Source: Virgibacillus sp. NKC19-3 (GTDB lineage: Bacteria; Bacillota; Bacilli; Bacillales; Amphibacillaceae). From it: DNA of 64,000 nucleotides. The notes beneath the pieces are model-generated. The model had not been told where the DNA came from. It saw only the letters and a list, made by a program, of their open reading frames with translations, and searched no databases. Numbering within the stretch: position 1 is the first letter of the stretch; the number at the start of each line of letters is the position of its first letter. The stretch lies in the NCBI RefSeq assembly GCF_019837165.1, contig NZ_JAGYHC010000001.1:1550001-1614000 (forward strand), in the 5' to 3' direction. This document shows, piece by piece, positions 33,686 to 60,456 of this stretch. The position numbers and the translations under genes were made by a program.

Positions 33686-33722
33686 TAGCAGCTTTGACTA
33701 AAAGCCTAAAAAACGACTAAAA

Positions 33723-33749
33723 AAAGCGAACAGGCCAACTGTTCGCTTT
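33723..33749 (-). terminator. Terminator of the first tatA cassette (works best leftward)
   Basis: AAAGCGAACAG and CTGTTCGCTTT form a perfect 11-bp stem with loop GCCAA. On the minus strand it is followed by a long T-run, so it ends the tatA operon; it may also stop the plus-strand phosphodiesterase transcript. Confidence 0.85.
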
Positions 33750-33762
33750 AAATATACATCTT

Positions 33763-33975
33763 CTAATCTGTCCTCTCAGTCTGAGGATCATACTTCTCGT
33801 CTTCAGTGCGTCCCGATTCATCGTCTTCCATAAGATTTGTGGCAGATTTCTTAAATTCTGACAGCGTCTGTCCAAAAGCGGACCCGATTTCGGGAAGTTT
33901 CTTTGGTCCGAAAATAATCAAGGCAAGGAGAACAATGAGAATTAAGCCCGGGATGCCTATATTTGTAAAGCTCAT
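33763..33975 (-). CDS. tatA: Twin-arginine translocase subunit TatA (copy 1)
   Basis: A 70-residue TatA. ATG 33975 follows GGGAG at eight bases; a longer frame begins six codons earlier without support. A single N-terminal membrane helix ([14 protein letters not shown]) is followed by the hinge [10 protein letters not shown] and an amphipathic helix with [12 protein letters not shown], then an acidic tail. It is the last gene of a cassette whose first gene has a Tat signal, so it probably serves export of that enzyme. No tatC is in the window. Confidence 0.93.
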
Positions 33976-34001
33976 ATTGCTATCTCCCTTCAATCAAAAT
34001 G

Positions 34002-35756
34002 TCAGGCATTTTTGGTTACCTTGCTGTTTTTCTTCCCTTGTACCAATTGACCGTCTTCTTCTCTGAATTGCATGATCCCCTCGGTTGCGCGGTATGCTAG
34101 TGCTCCGACTGTACCTGTAGGATTATAGCCCCCATTATGCGCGAACGCAGAAGCTCCAATGACGAATAGATTGTCCACATCCCACATTTGGGAGTAATTA
34201 TTAACCGCTGATGTTTCAGGATCATCTCCCATGATAACGCCACCGGTATTATGCGTTGTTTGATATGGGACAATATTATAATGGTCTGTCATTTCACTTT
34301 TTTCCACTCTATCTGCCCCCATCTCTTCCATAATACCTACAGCTTTTTCAGCAATATAGTCGTGCAGGTTTCTATCTTGCTCGGTATAGTCGTATGTTAA
34401 GCGGAGAAGAGGATATCCAAATGCATCCTTGTAATCTGGATCCAAACTTAAGTAATTGTTTCGATGGGGCATGGATGCACCTTCACAACCTATAGATAAC
34501 GTACGGTGAAAGTATTTTATGGATTGGGATTTGAATTCCTGCCCCCAATTTGGTGTGTCGTTCGGGACAACATTGCTATTGATAGGACGTTGCCCGGTTT
34601 GGGTAACATTGAGCACGCCACCGTGTATAAAATCTAAATCAGCATGATCGAAGTTATCCCCATTGTAGTCATCTACAGCAGCTCCAAGTGCTCCTGCGCC
34701 CATATACGTATTGAATTTTTCATCTTCAAAGAATCCTGTAGCACCTGGTTGGATCTGATAGCAATAATTTTTACCGATTACCCCTGATCTTGTTTCTGGA
34801 TCGTAGGGAGTACCTATATTAGAGTTTAACAGGAGACGTACATTATTCATTACATAGCTTGTCAGCACAACGATATCTGCTGGTTGGATAAATTCTTCTC
34901 CCGTTTGCAGGTCTACATACTTGACACCAGTGGCTCGATTTCCATCGTACATCACTTCCGTTACATTTGCATGGGTTCGTAAATCGAAATTTCCTGTTTC
35001 CTGAGCAGTGGGGATAACGGTAACATTTGGCGAAGACTTGGCGCCATATTCACAACCGAAACGCTCACAGAAACCACAGTACTGACATTGTGCGATGGTT
35101 TGACCATCCGGATTTTCATAGGCTTCTGACAGATTGCCTGAAGGAATATGAAAAGGGTGCAAGTCTAAATTGTTTGCCGCATCTTTAAATCGTTGTGTGA
35201 TTGGTGTTTCCTTCATTGCTGGTGTAGGATATGGTTTGTTTCTTGGTGCACTCAGTGGCATTGAATCCCCGTCTCCACTGATACCGGCCATTTCTTCAAA
35301 TTTATAAAAATAGGGTTCTAATTCATCATAGGATATACCCCAGTCTTGAAGGGTGTAATCTTCCCCTAGTTTATTTTCTCCGTATTTCTCGTCAGTCATA
35401 GTCTTAATTTCAAGATCATATGGCAGGAAGCGCCAAGTCATCCCATTCCAATGGACACCAGCACCGCCAACTCCTTCACCAAGCAGGAAAGATCCTAACT
35501 GACGCATAGGGAGTGCACGTTCATCTCTATTATTCCTAAAGGTTATCGTTTCCTTGGATAGATCCTGCATCAAACCATAACGAATCGCATATCGATATTC
35601 ATCGTGAATATGTTGGAAATTTTCTGTTGATCTGTCTTGCCCCCGTTCAAGTCCAACGACATTTATTCCTTGCTTGGTAAGCTCAGCAGCAACTATTCCC
35701 CCGGTCCAACCAACGCCTACTGTAACTACTTCTACCTTGTCTAATTCTTTCGCCAT
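34002..35756 (-). CDS. GMC oxidoreductase, gluconate/sugar dehydrogenase large-subunit type (copy 1)
   Basis: A 584-residue flavoprotein. The N-terminal FAD site is a variant dinucleotide motif (VVTVGVGWTGGIVAAEL, then GLERG). Cys224, Cys227, Cys230 and Cys235 form C-x2-C-x2-C-x4-C, probably an iron-sulfur site as in bacterial FAD-dependent glucose and gluconate dehydrogenases. The catalytic His/Asn region is HNTGGVIMG and NPTGTVGALAYRA near the C-terminus. It has no signal peptide and is probably carried out through the Tat system by the neighbouring subunit 3. Substrate is likely an alcohol, sugar or sugar acid; no cytochrome subunit is nearby. Confidence 0.87.
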   Translation of the reverse strand: MAKELDKVEVVTVGVGWTGGIVAAELTKQGINVVGLERGQDRSTENFQHIHDEYRYAIRYGLMQDLSKETITFRNNRDERALPMRQLGSFLLGEGVGGAGVHWNGMTWRFLPYDLEIKTMTDEKYGENKLGEDYTLQDWGISYDELEPYFYKFEEMAGISGDGDSMPLSAPRNKPYPTPAMKETPITQRFKDAANNLDLHPFHIPSGNLSEAYENPDGQTIAQCQYCGFCERFGCEYGAKSSPNVTVIPTAQETGNFDLRTHANVTEVMYDGNRATGVKYVDLQTGEEFIQPADIVVLTSYVMNNVRLLLNSNIGTPYDPETRSGVIGKNYCYQIQPGATGFFEDEKFNTYMGAGALGAAVDDYNGDNFDHADLDFIHGGVLNVTQTGQRPINSNVVPNDTPNWGQEFKSQSIKYFHRTLSIGCEGASMPHRNNYLSLDPDYKDAFGYPLLRLTYDYTEQDRNLHDYIAEKAVGIMEEMGADRVEKSEMTDHYNIVPYQTTHNTGGVIMGDDPETSAVNNYSQMWDVDNLFVIGASAFAHNGGYNPTGTVGALAYRATEGIMQFREEDGQLVQGKKNSKVTKNA

Positions 35757-35775
35757 ATTTTAGCCTCCATTCTAA

Positions 35776-36540
35776 TCAAGATGACATATGTGATCGTAAA
35801 GCTTTTGGTTCTTTTTCAATAAATTCTTCTTCTTCCATTTCATCAATGTAACTCATATAATTACCCGGATACTCCTTCATCACCCAACCTTGCATATTTC
35901 CATTACCGCCGTAAAGGGGGTCTGAATACGCCCCTTCTATGGTTGCTGATCGCAGTAGTTCGAAGAAGGTAGTTGGCGTAACCCCTTTCATATCTACTTC
36001 GTCGTCTTGGAATTTTTGTAATATCTCATCTTGTTGCTCGCCCTCGAGATCCAAAAAAGATGCGTTAAATTCATTTTGGCTTTCTCGCTGGATGGCCTGA
36101 ATGCCTACATCAAAAACGTCGCGTCTTTTTAATCTTGTCTGATATCCTTGAAAATCGGACCCGGGGTAAAATGGACCTTGCATATACTCCCGATCATTAT
36201 TACCATAGCCTCCAGCCAATTGGTGATCGATGAAAAAAGGAACACCTAACTCTATTGCACCAGGACCATTATCATCTTCCGGAAAAATTCGCTCGGTTGC
36301 TGCACTTAGTACATCGAAATCCTCTTGTCTAGTGAAATACATCAGTGCACGATTAAAGTTATTCGCTTCATCTGTAGATTCTGGTGCCGTTTGTTGCTGA
36401 TTCCCATCCAGAAAATTGGTGCCGAGAATCGAACCAAGAATACCACCACCAATTGCTCCACCAGCTACATAACCAGTATTTTTTATAAACTTCCGCCGTG
36501 ATATTTCAGATTGTTGCTTATCATTTTTTTCATCTGCCAC
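35776..36540 (-). CDS. Gluconate 2-dehydrogenase subunit 3 family protein with Tat signal (copy 1)
   Basis: A 254-residue protein starting at GTG 36540, eight bases after AAAGGAGG; the long upstream open frame is an artefact, and the paralogue begins at the same residue with ATG. SRRKFIKN followed by a glycine-rich hydrophobic segment (VAGGAIGGGILGSILG) is a twin-arginine signal. The mature domain (PEDDNGPGAIELGVPFFIDHQLAGGYG, FYPGSDFQGYQ) is the subunit 3 fold that partners GMC dehydrogenases. It probably carries the folded GMC subunit across the membrane and stays attached to the outer face. Confidence 0.88.
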   Translation of the reverse strand: MADEKNDKQQSEISRRKFIKNTGYVAGGAIGGGILGSILGTNFLDGNQQQTAPESTDEANNFNRALMYFTRQEDFDVLSAATERIFPEDDNGPGAIELGVPFFIDHQLAGGYGNNDREYMQGPFYPGSDFQGYQTRLKRRDVFDVGIQAIQRESQNEFNASFLDLEGEQQDEILQKFQDDEVDMKGVTPTTFFELLRSATIEGAYSDPLYGGNGNMQGWVMKEYPGNYMSYIDEMEEEEFIEKEPKALRSHMSS

Positions 36541-36722
36541 TACTATTCCTCCTTTATCTGCAGATACTGCCGAATTATGGATATTATGTGCAGTTATTTT
36601 GGAAATATACTTAAATAAATTGTCCTTCATTACGCTAACGCGATTAGCGAACACGCTGCTAAACATCCATAAAAAAGGCGTAAGTATTTTGGATTTTACA
36701 CAATAATGGAGACTTGACTGAT

Positions 36723-36890
36723 ATGAGCGCCCGAAAGCAGTCTTTCGAAGCAGGGAACGGTCACTCATGAGTGCGATGAGTGACCAAAAGAAGGATTTTG
36801 AAGCCAGAACGGTCACTCATAAAGGATATGAGTGACCGAAAGCAGTACTTCCAAGCCCAGAATAGTACTCATAAGAGAAGTGAGTCTTTG
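36723..36890. repeat. Tandem 52-53 bp repeats with palindromic cores
   Basis: Three degenerate units begin at 36723, 36776 and 36828. GGTCACTCAT and ATGAGTGACC form perfect 10-bp arms with 7-base spacers at 36759-36785 and again at 36811-36837, at the junctions of the units. Each unit also carries a GAAAGCAGT-type and an AAGCcagaA-type segment. No coding potential is seen. Confidence 0.7.
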
Positions 36891-36983
36891 TATCCATCGG
36901 CACATCAAATAGATGGTATGGGCCCATCTTCGGCAGTTGATTATTTTATCGCAATGTAACTGGCTGTAAGGCTTTCACTTGAG

Positions 36984-37371
36984 CAAAGGCGCAGGGCGCC
37001 CGGGTTGCAACGTACAAACTGGAACACTTCGCAGTGAGATTAGATGAACTTGACTTATCACCAGTAGTGGTGAAAGTCAAAGTGAATCTTATGCTTGGAA
37101 AGCGAAAAGGAAACATGCCCCTGCATCAGGGGAGCCGTGCGTTGGCCAGCAAGGACGTTCTTAGTCGGCCTTCCTTTGTTAAGTGCGACTTATCGTAATG
37201 GAGAAGTGTGAAGTTTGGGACTGCGCTAAAGCTCGCCCCACCAAAGGACTTGGGACTGCGCGGATGCTCGTCCCACCAAAAGACTTGCTATTGCTGGGCG
37301 CTGGAGCCGGATGTGGCTACTTTTGGAAATCAAGTTATGTCCAAGCAAATAATTTTATAATTTCCTAGGCA
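36984..37371 (+). repeat. Dispersed intergenic repeat, copy A
   Basis: This stretch shares long near-identical blocks, in opposite orientation, with 54304-54640: AAAGGCGCAGGGCGCC at the start, a strong hairpin at 37052-37078 (GACTT-TCACC arms), a GTGAAGTTTGGGACTGCG block with a GGGAC/GTCCC hairpin, and an AATTTTATAATTTCCTA end. Copy A has an extra GC-rich segment (about 37115-37180) and a tandem duplication of the roughly 35-bp GGGACTGCGC block. Short open frames through it are not credible genes. The 36541-36722 gap upstream holds nothing else recognised. Confidence 0.8.
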
Positions 37372-37377
37372 ACAAAA

Positions 37378-37406
37378 AAGTGAACAGCACTAAGTACTGT
37401 TCACTT
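37378..37406 (-). terminator. Terminator of the second tatA cassette
   Basis: AAGTGAACAG and CTGTTCACTT form a 10-bp stem with a 9-base loop; on the minus strand it is followed by a T-run. Confidence 0.85.
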
Positions 37407-37423
37407 CTTAAAATATCTATATA

Positions 37424-37642
37424 CTAATCTGTCTTCTCAGCTTGAGGTTGAGTTGGATTAGCATCTTTTTCATCTGTTGTCAACTCTTCATCACTTATCA
37501 GTCCGGTGGCAGATTTTTTAAATGATGAAAGGGTTTGTCCAAAGGCAGACCCGATTTCCGGAAGCTTCTTTGGCCCGAAAATAATTAAAGCAAGGATGAC
37601 AATGAGAATTAACCCCGGAATGCCTATATTTGCAATGCCCAT
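37424..37642 (-). CDS. tatA: Twin-arginine translocase subunit TatA (copy 2)
   Basis: A 72-residue TatA starting at ATG 37642 with GGGAG upstream. The membrane helix ([14 protein letters not shown]), hinge [10 protein letters not shown] and amphipathic [12 protein letters not shown] nearly match copy 1, while the acidic tail differs. It terminates the second dehydrogenase cassette. Retention of tatA in both copies suggests it is functionally tied to the dehydrogenase. Confidence 0.93.
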
Positions 37643-37678
37643 TTTGTTATCTCCCTTCATTTTTACGTGAGCGGTGTT

Positions 37679-39424
37679 TTACGTTACCTTCGTATTCTTC
37701 TTACCTTGTACCAGTTGGCCATTTTCTTCTCTGAATTGCATAATACCCTCGGCTGCTCGGTAAGCTAGTGCTCCCACAGTACCTGTGGGATTATAGCCGC
37801 CATTATGTGCAAAAGCAGAAGCACCGATGACAAATAGATTATCTACATCCCACATTTGGGAATAATTATTGACTGCTGATGTTTCAGGATCATCACCCAT
37901 AATAACGCCTCCGGTATTATGGGTTGTTTGGTATGGCACTATGTTATAATGATCAGTCATCTCACTGGCTTCAACATGATCTGCTCCCATTTCCTTCATG
38001 ATTTCCACAGATCTCTCCGCCAGATATGCATGCAGGCTTCTATCCTGATCGGTATAGTCATAGGTTAACCGAAGCAGTGGATAACCATTCGAATCCGTGT
38101 AATCGGGATCCAAGCTCAGGTAATTGTTCCGATGGGGCATGGATGCACCTTGGCTTCCAACAGTTAGTGTACGATAAAAGTATTTGAGTGACTCGGATTT
38201 AAATGTCTGTCCCCAGTTTGGTGTATCGTTTGGCACAACATTATTGTTAATTGGACGCTGCCCTTGTTGGTTAACTGTAATCACGCCACCATGTATGAAA
38301 TCTACATCGGAATGATCAAAATTATCTCCATTATAATCATCTATCGCTGCTCCAAGTGCTCCGGCTCCCATGTAGGTATTGAACTTTTCCTCCTCAAAGA
38401 AACCTGTCGCAGTAGGGCGCATTTGATAGCAATAATTTTTGCCAATGACACCTGACCGTGTCTCCGGATCATAAGGGCGGCCAATTTCTGAATTTAGCAA
38501 CAAGCGGGTGTTATTCATGACCCAACTTGTAAGCACGACGATATCAGCAGGTTGAATAAACTCTTCACCTGTCTGTAAATCTACATATTTTACACCATTG
38601 GCTTTGTCTCCATCGTATAACACTTCTGTTACGTTGGCGTTCATGCGTAACTCGAAATTATCCGTTTCTTGGGCAGTAGGAATAACGGTAACATTCGGTG
38701 TGGATTTGGCACCATATTCACAGCCGAAACGTTCACAAAAACCACAATATTGACATTGCTGGATGTTTTGACCATCCGGATTTTCATAGGCTTCAGACAA
38801 ATTGGCTGAAGGGATATGAAAGGGATGAAGGTCTAAATTACTCGCTGCATCTTTGAAACGCTTGGTTACCGGTGTTTCTTTCATTCGCGGGGTAGGGTAC
38901 GGATTATTTCGCGGTGCACTCTGTGGCATCGAGTCCGCATCTCCACTAATACCAGTTGTTTCTTCAAACTTGTAAAAATAAGGCTCTAATTCATCATAGG
39001 ATATGCCCCAGTCCTGCAGGGTATAATCATCTCCCAGTTTATCGGCCCCGTACTTCTCATCTGTATGTGTTTTAATTTCAAGGTCATATGGTAAGAAACG
39101 ATATACTTGCCCATCCCAATGCACACCTGCACCTCCCAAGCCTTCACCCATAAGGAATGAGCCTAATTGACGCATGGGAAGTGCGCGTTCATCGCGGTTA
39201 TTTCTGAATGTAATTGTTTCCTTTGATAAATCTTGCATTAAATCATAGCGGATTGCATATCGATACTCATCATGAATATGTTGAAAATCCTCGGTATCTC
39301 TGGGTTTTCCTCGCTCTAATCCAACAACCTGAACTCCATTTTTGGCTAGTTCTGCAGCGATTATTCCGCCTGTCCAACCAACGCCAACAGTAACTACTTC
39401 TACTTTATCTAACTCCGTTGCCAT
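37679..39424 (-). CDS. GMC oxidoreductase, gluconate/sugar dehydrogenase large-subunit type (copy 2)
   Basis: A 581-residue close paralogue of the enzyme at 34002-35756, alignable end to end without long gaps. The variant FAD motif, the C-x2-C-x2-C-x4-C cysteines (CQYCGFCERFGC) and the catalytic HNTGGVIMG and NPTGTVGALAYRA regions are all kept. Differences concentrate in short surface stretches. It lies 20 bases after its subunit 3 gene and is followed by tatA. The conserved catalytic residues suggest both copies are active, possibly with different substrates or expression. Confidence 0.87.
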   Translation of the reverse strand: MATELDKVEVVTVGVGWTGGIIAAELAKNGVQVVGLERGKPRDTEDFQHIHDEYRYAIRYDLMQDLSKETITFRNNRDERALPMRQLGSFLMGEGLGGAGVHWDGQVYRFLPYDLEIKTHTDEKYGADKLGDDYTLQDWGISYDELEPYFYKFEETTGISGDADSMPQSAPRNNPYPTPRMKETPVTKRFKDAASNLDLHPFHIPSANLSEAYENPDGQNIQQCQYCGFCERFGCEYGAKSTPNVTVIPTAQETDNFELRMNANVTEVLYDGDKANGVKYVDLQTGEEFIQPADIVVLTSWVMNNTRLLLNSEIGRPYDPETRSGVIGKNYCYQMRPTATGFFEEEKFNTYMGAGALGAAIDDYNGDNFDHSDVDFIHGGVITVNQQGQRPINNNVVPNDTPNWGQTFKSESLKYFYRTLTVGSQGASMPHRNNYLSLDPDYTDSNGYPLLRLTYDYTDQDRSLHAYLAERSVEIMKEMGADHVEASEMTDHYNIVPYQTTHNTGGVIMGDDPETSAVNNYSQMWDVDNLFVIGASAFAHNGGYNPTGTVGALAYRAAEGIMQFREENGQLVQGKKNTKVT

Positions 39425-39444
39425 TATTATCCTCCATTCTTTTA

Positions 39445-40206
39445 CTACGATGATATATGTGATTGTAAAGCCTTTGGCTCTTTTTCTATAAATTCTTCTT
39501 CCTCGATTTCATCGATATAACTCATGTAGTTACCAGGATATTCCTTCATTACCCAGCCTTCCATATTGCCATTTCCGCCGTAGAGTGGATCGGCATATGC
39601 TCCTTCAATCGTAGCAGAGCGCAATAGCTCGAAAAAGGTGGTGGCTGTTACCCCTTTCAAATCAACATCGCCATCTTGAAATTGTTGTAAAATCTCGTCT
39701 TGTTGCTCTCCCTCGAGATCAACAAAAGAAGCGTTAAAATCATTCTGGCTTTGCTTTTCGATAGCCTGGATACCTACATCAAATACCTCGTGGCGTTTGA
39801 GCCGTGTTTGATATCCTTGAAAATCCGATCCGGGATAGAAAGGGCCTTGCATATATTCTCTATCATTATGTCCATACGCTCCAGCTAATTGGTGATCAAT
39901 AAAAAAAGGGATGCCTAATTCTATTGCACCGGGTCCATTATCATCTTCCGGAAAAATTCGCTCGGTTGCTGCACGAAGGATGTCGAAGTCAGATTGTTTG
40001 GTAAAATACATCAGAGCACGATTAAAATTGTTTTCTTCGTTTGTATTTTCCGGGGAAGTTTGCTGGTTATCACCTAAAAAATTAGTGCCAAGCAGAGAAC
40101 CAAGTAACCCTCCACCAATTGCCCCACCAGCTACATAACCAGTATTCTTCATGAATTTACGCCGGGACATCTCTGACTGTTTTTTCGCATCTTTTTCATC
40201 AGCCAT
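39445..40206 (-). CDS. Gluconate 2-dehydrogenase subunit 3 family protein with Tat signal (copy 2)
   Basis: A 253-residue paralogue of the protein at 35776-36540, starting at ATG 40206 with AAAGGAG upstream. The Tat signal is SRRKFMKNTGYVAGGAIGGG, followed by a Thr/Asn/Gln-rich linker and the subunit 3 domain (NGPGAIELGIPFFIDHQLAG). It begins the second cassette. Comparison of the two N-termini supports the GTG start chosen for copy 1. Confidence 0.9.
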   Translation of the reverse strand: MADEKDAKKQSEMSRRKFMKNTGYVAGGAIGGGLLGSLLGTNFLGDNQQTSPENTNEENNFNRALMYFTKQSDFDILRAATERIFPEDDNGPGAIELGIPFFIDHQLAGAYGHNDREYMQGPFYPGSDFQGYQTRLKRHEVFDVGIQAIEKQSQNDFNASFVDLEGEQQDEILQQFQDGDVDLKGVTATTFFELLRSATIEGAYADPLYGGNGNMEGWVMKEYPGNYMSYIDEIEEEEFIEKEPKALQSHISS

Positions 40207-40299
40207 TTTATTACTCCTTTCATTGTCTATTGATTAGTATTTGTGATAATTATTTCACTATACCATAAATAAACATTTCTTGACAATATTGTCGAAACT

Positions 40300-40334
40300 A
40301 AAAGGCGAACAGTGCCAGGCACTGTTCGCCTTTT
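40300..40334 (-). terminator. Near-perfect 35-nt palindrome, terminator of the stress protein gene
   Basis: AAAAGGCGAACAGTGCC and GGCACTGTTCGCCTTTT are exact inverted repeats around a single base. T-runs at both ends make it a potential bidirectional terminator; it lies just after the leftward stress-protein gene. Confidence 0.85.
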
Positions 40335-40348
40335 AAGGATTTATATGA

Positions 40349-54303: not shown

Positions 54304-54640
54304 CTGCATAGGAAATTATAAAATTTTGAGGTTGTGGATAATTCACTGGCCAAACAAGCCTCATCCGGCTCCAGTGCCCAGCAATAGCAAGTCTTTTGGT
54401 GGGACGAGCATCCGCGCAGTCCCAAACTTCACACTCCTCCATTACGATAAGTCAACATCGGCTCGTACCTCGCTGTGTTTCCTTTTCGCTTTCCAAGCAT
54501 AAGATTCACTTTGACTTTCACCACTACTGGTGATAAGTCAAGTTCATCTAATCTCATTGCGGAGTGCTCCAGTTTGTACGTTGCTAACCGGGCGCCCTGC
54601 GCCTTTGTTCCTGCATAGGAAATTATAAAATTATTTGCTT
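54304..54640 (-). repeat. Dispersed intergenic repeat, copy B, flanked by 22-bp direct repeats
   Basis: An inverted copy of the element at 36984-37371. The hairpin is at 54513-54539, the GGGAC/GTCCC block near 54400-54422 and the GGCGCCCTGCGCC end near 54588-54605. A perfect 22-bp direct repeat (CTGCATAGGAAATTATAAAATT) bounds it at 54304-54325 and 54611-54632. The second of these continues into a stretch like the 3' end of copy A, suggesting a partial second unit. No coding potential. The 54641-54772 remainder holds no recognised gene. Confidence 0.8.
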
Positions 54641-54772
54641 GGGCATAACGTATTATTGATTAATGGCTACGTCCAGCTACAAGCGCCAAAAACGAGAAGA
54701 TAACACGAGAGCTCCAATCTCTACGTTTTTAATCAAGCGCTTTTCGCTTTTGTTCTCAAGTGCACCAGCTTC

Positions 54773-60219: not shown

Positions 60220-60225
60220 TGGTTA

Positions 60226-60456
60226 CAAGCTACGATGTGCGTATTTAAATAAGTTTTAACCTCTAACAGATGAATAGGGAGTTTTATATAAAAATTGGAA
60301 TGTCGGGCCGTCAATGTGTAGCGGAAGACAGGAATGTTTTTGCAAACACCCACTTGGAGAAGTGGTGGTTTAAAACTTTTTATATCAAATACGGCAATTG
60401 TGGCCTGTAACTCTATTAATGTTCAAGACCAGCTTCTTATGGAGGCTGGTCTTTTA
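60226..60456 (+). ncRNA. ssrS: 6S (SsrS)-like small RNA candidate
   Basis: A stand-alone transcription unit of about 230 nt lies between a near-consensus promoter and a terminator (GACCAGC/GCTGGTC then TTTT at 60426-60455). GTATTT and AAGTTTTAA on the 5' side pair with TTAAAACTT and AAATAC near 60372-60404, closing a long rod with a large internal bubble. An apical hairpin, CCCACTT-GGAG-AAGTGG, is at about 60350-60367. Rod, bubble and size fit 6S RNA, and the AAGUUUUAACC segment is what I recall of Bacillus 6S-2 template regions. The family assignment is from memory and shape. Confidence 0.55.

Follow-up and report, generated by a model that had tools for sequence, protein, structure and literature searches.

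The stretch of DNA analyzed here, 64,000 nucleotides from Virgibacillus sp. NKC19-3 (the window), contains two tandem three-gene cassettes on the minus strand between positions 33763 and 40206. Each consists of a gene for a gluconate 2-dehydrogenase subunit 3 protein (S3; PF13618) with a Tat signal, a gene for a GMC family FAD dehydrogenase subunit, and a gene for TatA, in the same order and with all frames intact. A preliminary description of the window had proposed a tandem duplication with common gene order and strand and with similar hairpins at the ends, and this was confirmed by the open reading frames (ORFs), repeats, Pfam matches, and folding energies. The features are listed below in window coordinates.

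40292..40336, minus strand: terminator-like hairpin of the upstream YflT-like gene, resembling the cassette hairpins (folding energy)
40257..40286, minus strand: candidate sigma-70-like promoter with extended -10, TTGTCA-18-TATAGT, upstream of copy 1 (consensus match only)
39445..40206, minus strand: S3 copy 1, Gluconate_2-dh3 family small subunit with Tat-type signal SRRKFMKNTG and no cysteine
37679..39424, minus strand: GMC FAD dehydrogenase subunit copy 1, no signal peptide seen; CX2CX2CX4C is C224, C227, C230, C235
37424..37642, minus strand: TatA copy 1 (the listed start, 37660, overlaps the likely ribosome-binding site)
37372..37412, minus strand: terminator-like hairpin at the end of copy 1 (folding energy)
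36600..37370, no strand: region between the copies, mostly intergenic repeat
35776..36540, minus strand: S3 copy 2, GTG start behind AAAGGAGG, no cysteine (the listed 346-aa ORF begins too early)
34002..35756, minus strand: GMC FAD dehydrogenase subunit copy 2 (ORF and Pfam)
33763..33975, minus strand: TatA copy 2 (ORF and Pfam)
33716..33752, minus strand: terminator-like hairpin at the end of copy 2 (folding energy)

All six cassette proteins matched their Pfam families (PF13618, PF00732/PF05199, and PF02416) above the curated cut-offs. The S3 copies scored 109.8 and 106.8 bits for PF13618 (gathering cut-off 23.4), and the TatA copies scored 63.5 and 60.2 bits for PF02416 (cut-off 21), both with an FG hinge after the transmembrane helix. 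The hairpins after TatA (-14.7 and -20.1 kcal/mol, z = -4.4 and -6.8) are terminator-like; that after the upstream YflT-like gene has a folding energy of -27.9 kcal/mol (z = -7.3). Promoter-like matches in the scanned region numbered 18, compared with 19.8 expected.

TatA in the cassettes and in the genome

Two sets of related cassettes were compared with those in the window. The family sample was made up of 120 genomes, 48 of them with S3; from genomes other than the window's own, all 78 places with S3 were retrieved, in 74 stretches. The set of 81 cassettes used for counting contained S3-paired GMC genes of at least 480 aa, 6 of 87 GMC hits having been dropped as shorter than 480 aa or without S3. 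The second set, the named loci, contained the best 80 of 346 matches; its query alignment itself includes cassettes with TatA and TatC, and the set is therefore biased, the family sample less so. Several genomes are probably common to both sets. In the family sample, genes were assigned to a cassette when they lay downstream within 1.5 kb (TatA) or 2.5 kb (TatC).

Of the 81 family-sample cassettes, 46 were followed by TatA and 11 by TatC. Chance adjacency of TatA was rejected as an explanation, about 0.06 cases being expected by a rough estimate. All 80 named loci had S3 upstream, 72 had TatA, 62 had TatC, and 61 had both, with the order TatC-TatA at L238; they come from Salibacterium, Thalassobacillus, Halobacillus, Sediminibacillus, Planococcus, Sporosarcina, Lysinibacillus, and others. 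Distances among cassette TatA proteins tracked those of their own GMC proteins (r = 0.67 for 45 cassettes, one of the 46 having been dropped because its TatA core was too short), compared with 0.24 (30) and 0.38 (37) for housekeeping TatA. At the level of whole genomes, TatA was found in 48/48 with S3 and in 46/72 without S3 (Fisher p = 1.9e-7). None of the 26 genomes lacking TatA had S3, and the mean TatA count was 3.67 in S3-bearing genomes vs. 2.17 in the other Tat-bearing ones. These results support the conclusion that TatA is a recurrent, co-inherited member of the cassette. The co-evolved export unit proposed in the preliminary description is partly supported: TatA belongs to the cassette by descent, but the locus has no TatC, so that the unit is a partial one.

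The genome from which the window comes (4.05 Mb, 99.7% complete) was searched for tatC and further tatA genes, as the preliminary description had suggested, and contains one TatC and eight TatA. The single TatC sits behind two TatA in a separate tatA-tatA-tatC locus. Two more TatA are those in the window, two belong to further S3/GMC cassettes, at about 3217 kb and 3549 kb, and of the remaining two, one faces moaC and one is downstream of a Tat-signal metallophosphoesterase gene. There are eight S3 and nine GMC genes, making eight S3/GMC pairs. In the family sample of 120 genomes, no other genome reaches eight S3 or eight TatA, the next highest counts being six and seven.

Several results weigh against TatA as a dedicated partner of the dehydrogenase. 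In the window's own genome, TatA is downstream of four of the eight S3/GMC pairs and of none of the other four. Among the family-sample cassettes, 35/81 have no TatA within 1.5 kb downstream; two (L038 and L100) have one just upstream. Within the S3-bearing genomes, S3 and TatA counts were uncorrelated (rho = 0.15, p = 0.30). Constraint, measured as the ratio of nonsynonymous to synonymous substitution rates (dN/dS) in a set of 21 sequences, 3 of which were retained despite a warning of an incorrect start codon, was looser for cassette TatA (0.12–0.31, and 0.19 copy vs. copy) than for GMC and S3 (0.04–0.09). Housekeeping TatA also gave 0.04–0.09, and cassette TatA resembled the YflT-like neighbor (0.16–0.36). 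The TatA tree, built on 63 columns, is weak: the window TatAs joined those of TatA-TatC cassettes with an SH-aLRT support of 92, not starred, and a single clade of all cassette TatA was neither rejected (approximately unbiased test, p-AU = 0.137) nor demonstrated.

Three other arrangements were seen. At L032:2836-3694 the lone TatA faces moaC; tatCy loci of Bacilli are reported often to adjoin moaC (PMC3827258, in the parts available), and by analogy this may be another TatA whose TatC is gone. At L033:2730-4662 a TatA without TatC follows the Tat-signal metallophosphoesterase gene, which reads as one frame of 194 aa overlapping another of 297 aa. In another genome (G091), L074:4563-11841 contains three consecutive S3-GMC pairs and, where the contig ends, one more S3, with no TatA there.

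History of the cassette TatC

Neither the two copies in the window nor the single full copies in two congeners have a cassette TatC, and each of these three genomes has a single TatC. In the TatC tree, 12 of 13 TatCs located in or beside cassettes fell on one side of a branch with support 99*, and all 41 housekeeping TatCs fell on the opposite side; the seven cassette TatCs nearest the window formed one group (96*). Cassettes of the window genus nest inside the TatC-bearing group: forcing the 10 TatC-bearing cassettes into one clade gave p-AU = 0.014, and that clade occurred in 0% of 200 bootstrap trees. Because the TatCs concerned form one group and occupy one position after TatA, we prefer the reading that the window genus lost its cassette TatC.

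The strongest alternative is that the cassette with TatA only is older, that TatC was gained twice (once in the Sediminibacillus type and once in the Salibacterium/Thalassobacillus/Halobacillus type), and that the window genus lost nothing. Under it, one type of TatC would have had to reach an identical position on two occasions. In its favor, the rows just outside the 14-row clade are mostly without a downstream TatC, so that a gain plus a loss and two gains need equal steps locally. No TatC remnant was found near either TatA by tblastn with TatC queries (window 26000-47000, no match at E = 0.001). Six fits of the ancestral state divide between the two readings. The probability that TatC was present was 0.37 and 0.97 for the family sample, 0.68 and 0.98 for the named loci with a downstream TatC, and 0.71 and 0.23 for the named loci with any TatC within 3.5 kb. 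The values of 0.97 and 0.98, from two-rate models on two trees, strongly favor presence; of the other four, on the same trees, two favor absence (0.23 and 0.37) and two are undecided (0.68 and 0.71), so that the ancestral TatC is not settled. Further points count against our overall reading. The TatC tree was flagged for long branches, and in it the cassette-side TatC of L103 falls on the housekeeping side; a TatC tree restricted to the 10 close cassettes did not resolve; and one S3-bearing genome (G106, 80% complete) had no TatC match. Taken together, two gains are a real possibility, to which we give appreciably less than an even chance.

A mixed arrangement occurs in Salipaludibacillus neizhouensis (L168:8753-11639), where a shortened GMC frame comes after S3-GMC-TatA, and then another TatA and a single TatC.

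The dehydrogenase

In sequence comparisons, the closest matches of the GMC subunit were the iron-sulfur fructose and glucose dehydrogenases (E = 1.7e-35 and 1.1e-22), and its predicted fold (pLDDT 76.6, pTM 0.85) was also nearest to fructose and glucose dehydrogenases (Foldseek E = 7e-35 and 5e-31). By homology, the substrate would be a sugar, a polyol, or a sugar acid; the ORF lists of eight loci, inspected by eye, gave no hint of it from neighboring genes.

The cysteine motif CX2CX2CX4C was present in 79/81 GMC proteins of the family sample and in 82/82, the two exceptions having CX2NX2CX4C and keeping the three putative cluster-ligand cysteines; the motif CCX4CX3C was found in 0 of the 163 GMCs counted. 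In the alignment to fructose dehydrogenase, C224, C230, and C235 face cysteines and C227 faces asparagine. The three thus match three of the four fructose dehydrogenase cysteines, at the spacing of the 3Fe-4S motif in the Burkholderia cepacia glucose dehydrogenase (BcGDH), a correspondence of residues only. In BcGDH, according to the accessible text of PMC6719666, the 3Fe-4S cluster is bound by Cys212, Cys218, and Cys222, and Cys213 is bonded to the small subunit. The place of Cys213 is occupied by glutamine in the window GMC in the same alignment. S3 proteins lacked cysteine from the RR motif onward in 76/82 frames of the family sample and lacked any cysteine in 77/81 frames of the named loci; the RR motif itself was present in 79/82 S3 of the family sample and in 81/81 S3 frames of 200–300 aa in the named loci. 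Because S3 is generally without cysteine, a disulfide of the BcGDH type is absent as a rule, and C227 would be free to serve as a fourth ligand. We therefore regard C227 as a candidate fourth iron-sulfur ligand.

The FAD-binding segment of the GMC subunit is nearly at its N-terminus, and no signal was seen. The preliminary description had proposed that the signal-less GMC is carried out on S3, and such hitchhiking fits the precedent of the Burkholderia glucose dehydrogenase, as far as that enzyme is described in the portions of PMC6719666 at hand. The predicted fold of S3 (mean pLDDT 74) matched no solved structure significantly, and by sequence its matches to solved chains did not go beyond a Tat signal at E = 0.32. 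A search for a BcGDH-gamma fold in S3 gave no significant match: Foldseek listed none at E = 0.001 and 30 up to E = 10, the best at 2.0, and S3 may still belong to that family. VIA-align, run on the 302 Foldseek-ranked chains only, gave a best Z of 2.5 for S3.

Electron acceptor

The preliminary description had found no cytochrome partner and had left the electron acceptor open. The first point is true at the window locus: no CXXCH ORF of 80–220 aa lies within 2.5 kb downstream, and there is none among the locus ORFs. The second can be narrowed. In 6/81 family-sample cassettes, a gene for a lipoprotein-like cytochrome of 123–132 aa with one CXXCH lies about 1.05–1.09 kb after GMC, behind TatC; all six are among the 10 cassettes with both TatA and TatC. 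Both cassette cytochromes tested matched PF13442. A homologue with 40% identity is encoded elsewhere in the window's genome, as a 117-aa frame with a lipobox and CXXCH, at 2848017 of the genome. An SCO1/SenC-like gene lies beside three of the eight S3/GMC pairs of that genome (L028:2137-2769, L029:5215-5802, and L030:1243-1839), and the one tested matched PF02630. These findings point to a small lipoprotein cytochrome c as the putative acceptor, and the cytochrome c branch of respiration may be the electron route.

Proposed mechanism

We propose that each cassette would produce a two-subunit FAD/iron-sulfur dehydrogenase acting outside the cytoplasm. GMC would fold with its cofactors inside the cell, bind S3, and leave through the Tat pathway on the S3 signal peptide. 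Electrons would pass from FAD to an iron-sulfur cluster and from there probably to a small lipoprotein cytochrome c whose gene lies elsewhere. The third gene would represent one half, TatA, of a TatA-TatC translocase encoded with its cargo (S3-GMC-TatA-TatC), an arrangement found widely among Bacillaceae and Caryophanaceae. The window genus has no dedicated TatC, its loss there being likelier than two gains in relatives, and the dedicated TatA would have been kept, in the window species in two tandem cassettes. The cassette TatA would have to use the cell's sole TatC, that of the tatA-tatA-tatC locus, and would supply extra TatA when the cassette is expressed. Sharing of one TatC is plausible because TatAd of Bacillus subtilis is reported, in the available part of PMC3068169, to work with TatAy and TatCy at high salt. 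Taken as a whole, with a secreted dehydrogenase, half of a TatA-TatC cassette, a lost TatC, and a shared housekeeping TatC, this reading seems to us somewhat better than an even bet.

The linked TatA might instead be a generic extra TatA with no cargo preference, kept by inheritance of the unit, by mobility, or as help for a large Tat cargo. That half of the S3/GMC pairs in this genome manage without TatA, and that cassette TatA is under looser constraint, agree with such a role. So do two cases in other bacteria, as given in the accessible parts of the papers: the tatA2 gene of the Campylobacter jejuni nap operon is not specifically needed for NapA (PMC4148689), and TatAd of B. subtilis joins TatAy and TatCy in the export of YwbN at high salt (PMC3068169). 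A generic TatA does not fit as well with the cassette TatA being for the most part a sequence type of its own, whose distances follow those of GMC more closely than do those of housekeeping TatA, or with its being kept in both tandem copies and both congeners despite the lack of a cassette TatC. We judge this alternative possible but not probable. The dedicated TatA of the preliminary description accordingly stands as regards its persistence in the cassettes, and is weakened by the four pairs without TatA and by the C. jejuni gene.

The preferred reading can be extended. One TatC may be served by cargo-encoded TatA adaptors, four from dehydrogenase cassettes and one from a phosphoesterase locus, so that specificity would have moved from TatC to TatA and each TatA would be tuned to its cargo; the four-cysteine motif would in addition hold a [4Fe-4S] cluster where BcGDH has [3Fe-4S]. 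We consider this extension speculative and rather improbable.

Age of the two copies

Five repeat segments of 146–300 nt, at a constant spacing of 3666–3669 nt, are 77–86% identical between the copies; whole-gene DNA identities of copy 1 to copy 2 are 80% for S3, 78% for GMC, and 77% for TatA. Both congeners (G029 and G066) share the locus, with the YflT-like gene upstream. G029 has a single copy; G066 has one copy plus a 105-aa GMC remnant upstream, at the place of copy 1 in the window. Copy 2 clusters with the G029 gene (support 93/91), so that the duplication predates that split or copy 1 evolved faster. The synonymous distance (dS) of GMC is 0.96 to G029 and 2.2 copy vs. copy. Both GMC and S3 are under strong constraint in both copies (dN/dS about 0.04, at a dS near saturation). 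That the copies are redundant duplicates without separate roles, as their identical architecture and motif, their high similarity, and the single full copies of the congeners would allow, is unlikely, since the duplication is not recent and GMC and S3 are constrained in both copies.

The intergenic gap between the copies is 0.8 kb, and much of it is a genome-wide repeat. The repeat is modular, with 75 matches in the window's genome, and it also occurs elsewhere in the window, at 54305-54649. A search of 21 genomes found pieces of it in 8: that of the window, the congener G066 with 78 matches, and six others. No Rfam family matched the repeat at the gathering threshold. A known RNA at the cassette locus was likewise rejected, the only Rfam match at that threshold being 6S RNA (RF00013) at window 60224-60410.

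Comparison with known systems

The association of these genes with tatC in Bacilli is already in print. In the 2013 survey of TatC (PMC3827258), gluconate 2-dehydrogenase subunit 3 and a flavoprotein are named beside Bacilli tatC in the legend of Figure 3, and phoD and efeB are described near their tatC. Section 14 of that text is silent on the gluconate 2-dehydrogenase genes, and the sections available mention neither a TatA-only cassette nor a tandem arrangement. In Collimonas, TatA/TatB and a GMC oxidoreductase with a Tat-signal small subunit are said, in the accessible part of PMC12542777, to be essential for mineral weathering. A word search of the literature found nothing joining gluconate 2-dehydrogenase subunit 3 with TatA; spelling variants, such as the unhyphenated form in PMC3827258, escape such a search.

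How the Tat system selects and fits folded cargo that differs is not settled, and the cassette types provide a natural experiment: some have TatA and TatC, some TatA only, and some neither, the last two kinds coexisting in this cell. Tandem cassettes of cargo plus TatA without TatC make TatA specificity testable. If the cluster assignment is true, this group of GMC proteins with four cysteines would add a new electron-transfer variant to the enzymes studied for glucose sensors.

As in BcGDH and the Gluconobacter fructose dehydrogenase, the catalytic subunit is a GMC protein with a cysteine cluster. As in BcGDH, there is a small subunit with a Tat signal, which in BcGDH is thought to carry the catalytic subunit out (PMC6719666, as far as available). 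Unlike both enzymes, the window locus encodes no multiheme cytochrome subunit, some relatives encoding a one-heme lipoprotein instead, and the GMC motif is CX2CX2CX4C. The small subunit in the window belongs to PF13618 and has no sequence match or significant fold match to BcGDH gamma (model mean pLDDT 74). Both S3 proteins are free of cysteine, so that there is no counterpart of the Cys213-Cys152 bond reported for BcGDH in the same portions of PMC6719666.

On the Tat side, the cassettes resemble the TatAd-TatCd (PhoD) and TatAy-TatCy (YwbN/EfeB) systems of B. subtilis, in which Tat genes of the minimal TatA-TatC type lie near their cargo (PMC3827258 and PMC3068169, in the parts consulted). 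They differ from these in that the window cassettes have TatA only and the genome has one TatC. As a lone TatA-type gene in a redox-enzyme cluster, each is like tatA2 in the C. jejuni nap operon and tatE in the Pseudomonas stutzeri nos cluster, as these are presented in the available text of PMC4148689; unlike those two genes, the window cassette has many relatives that encode a TatC partner.

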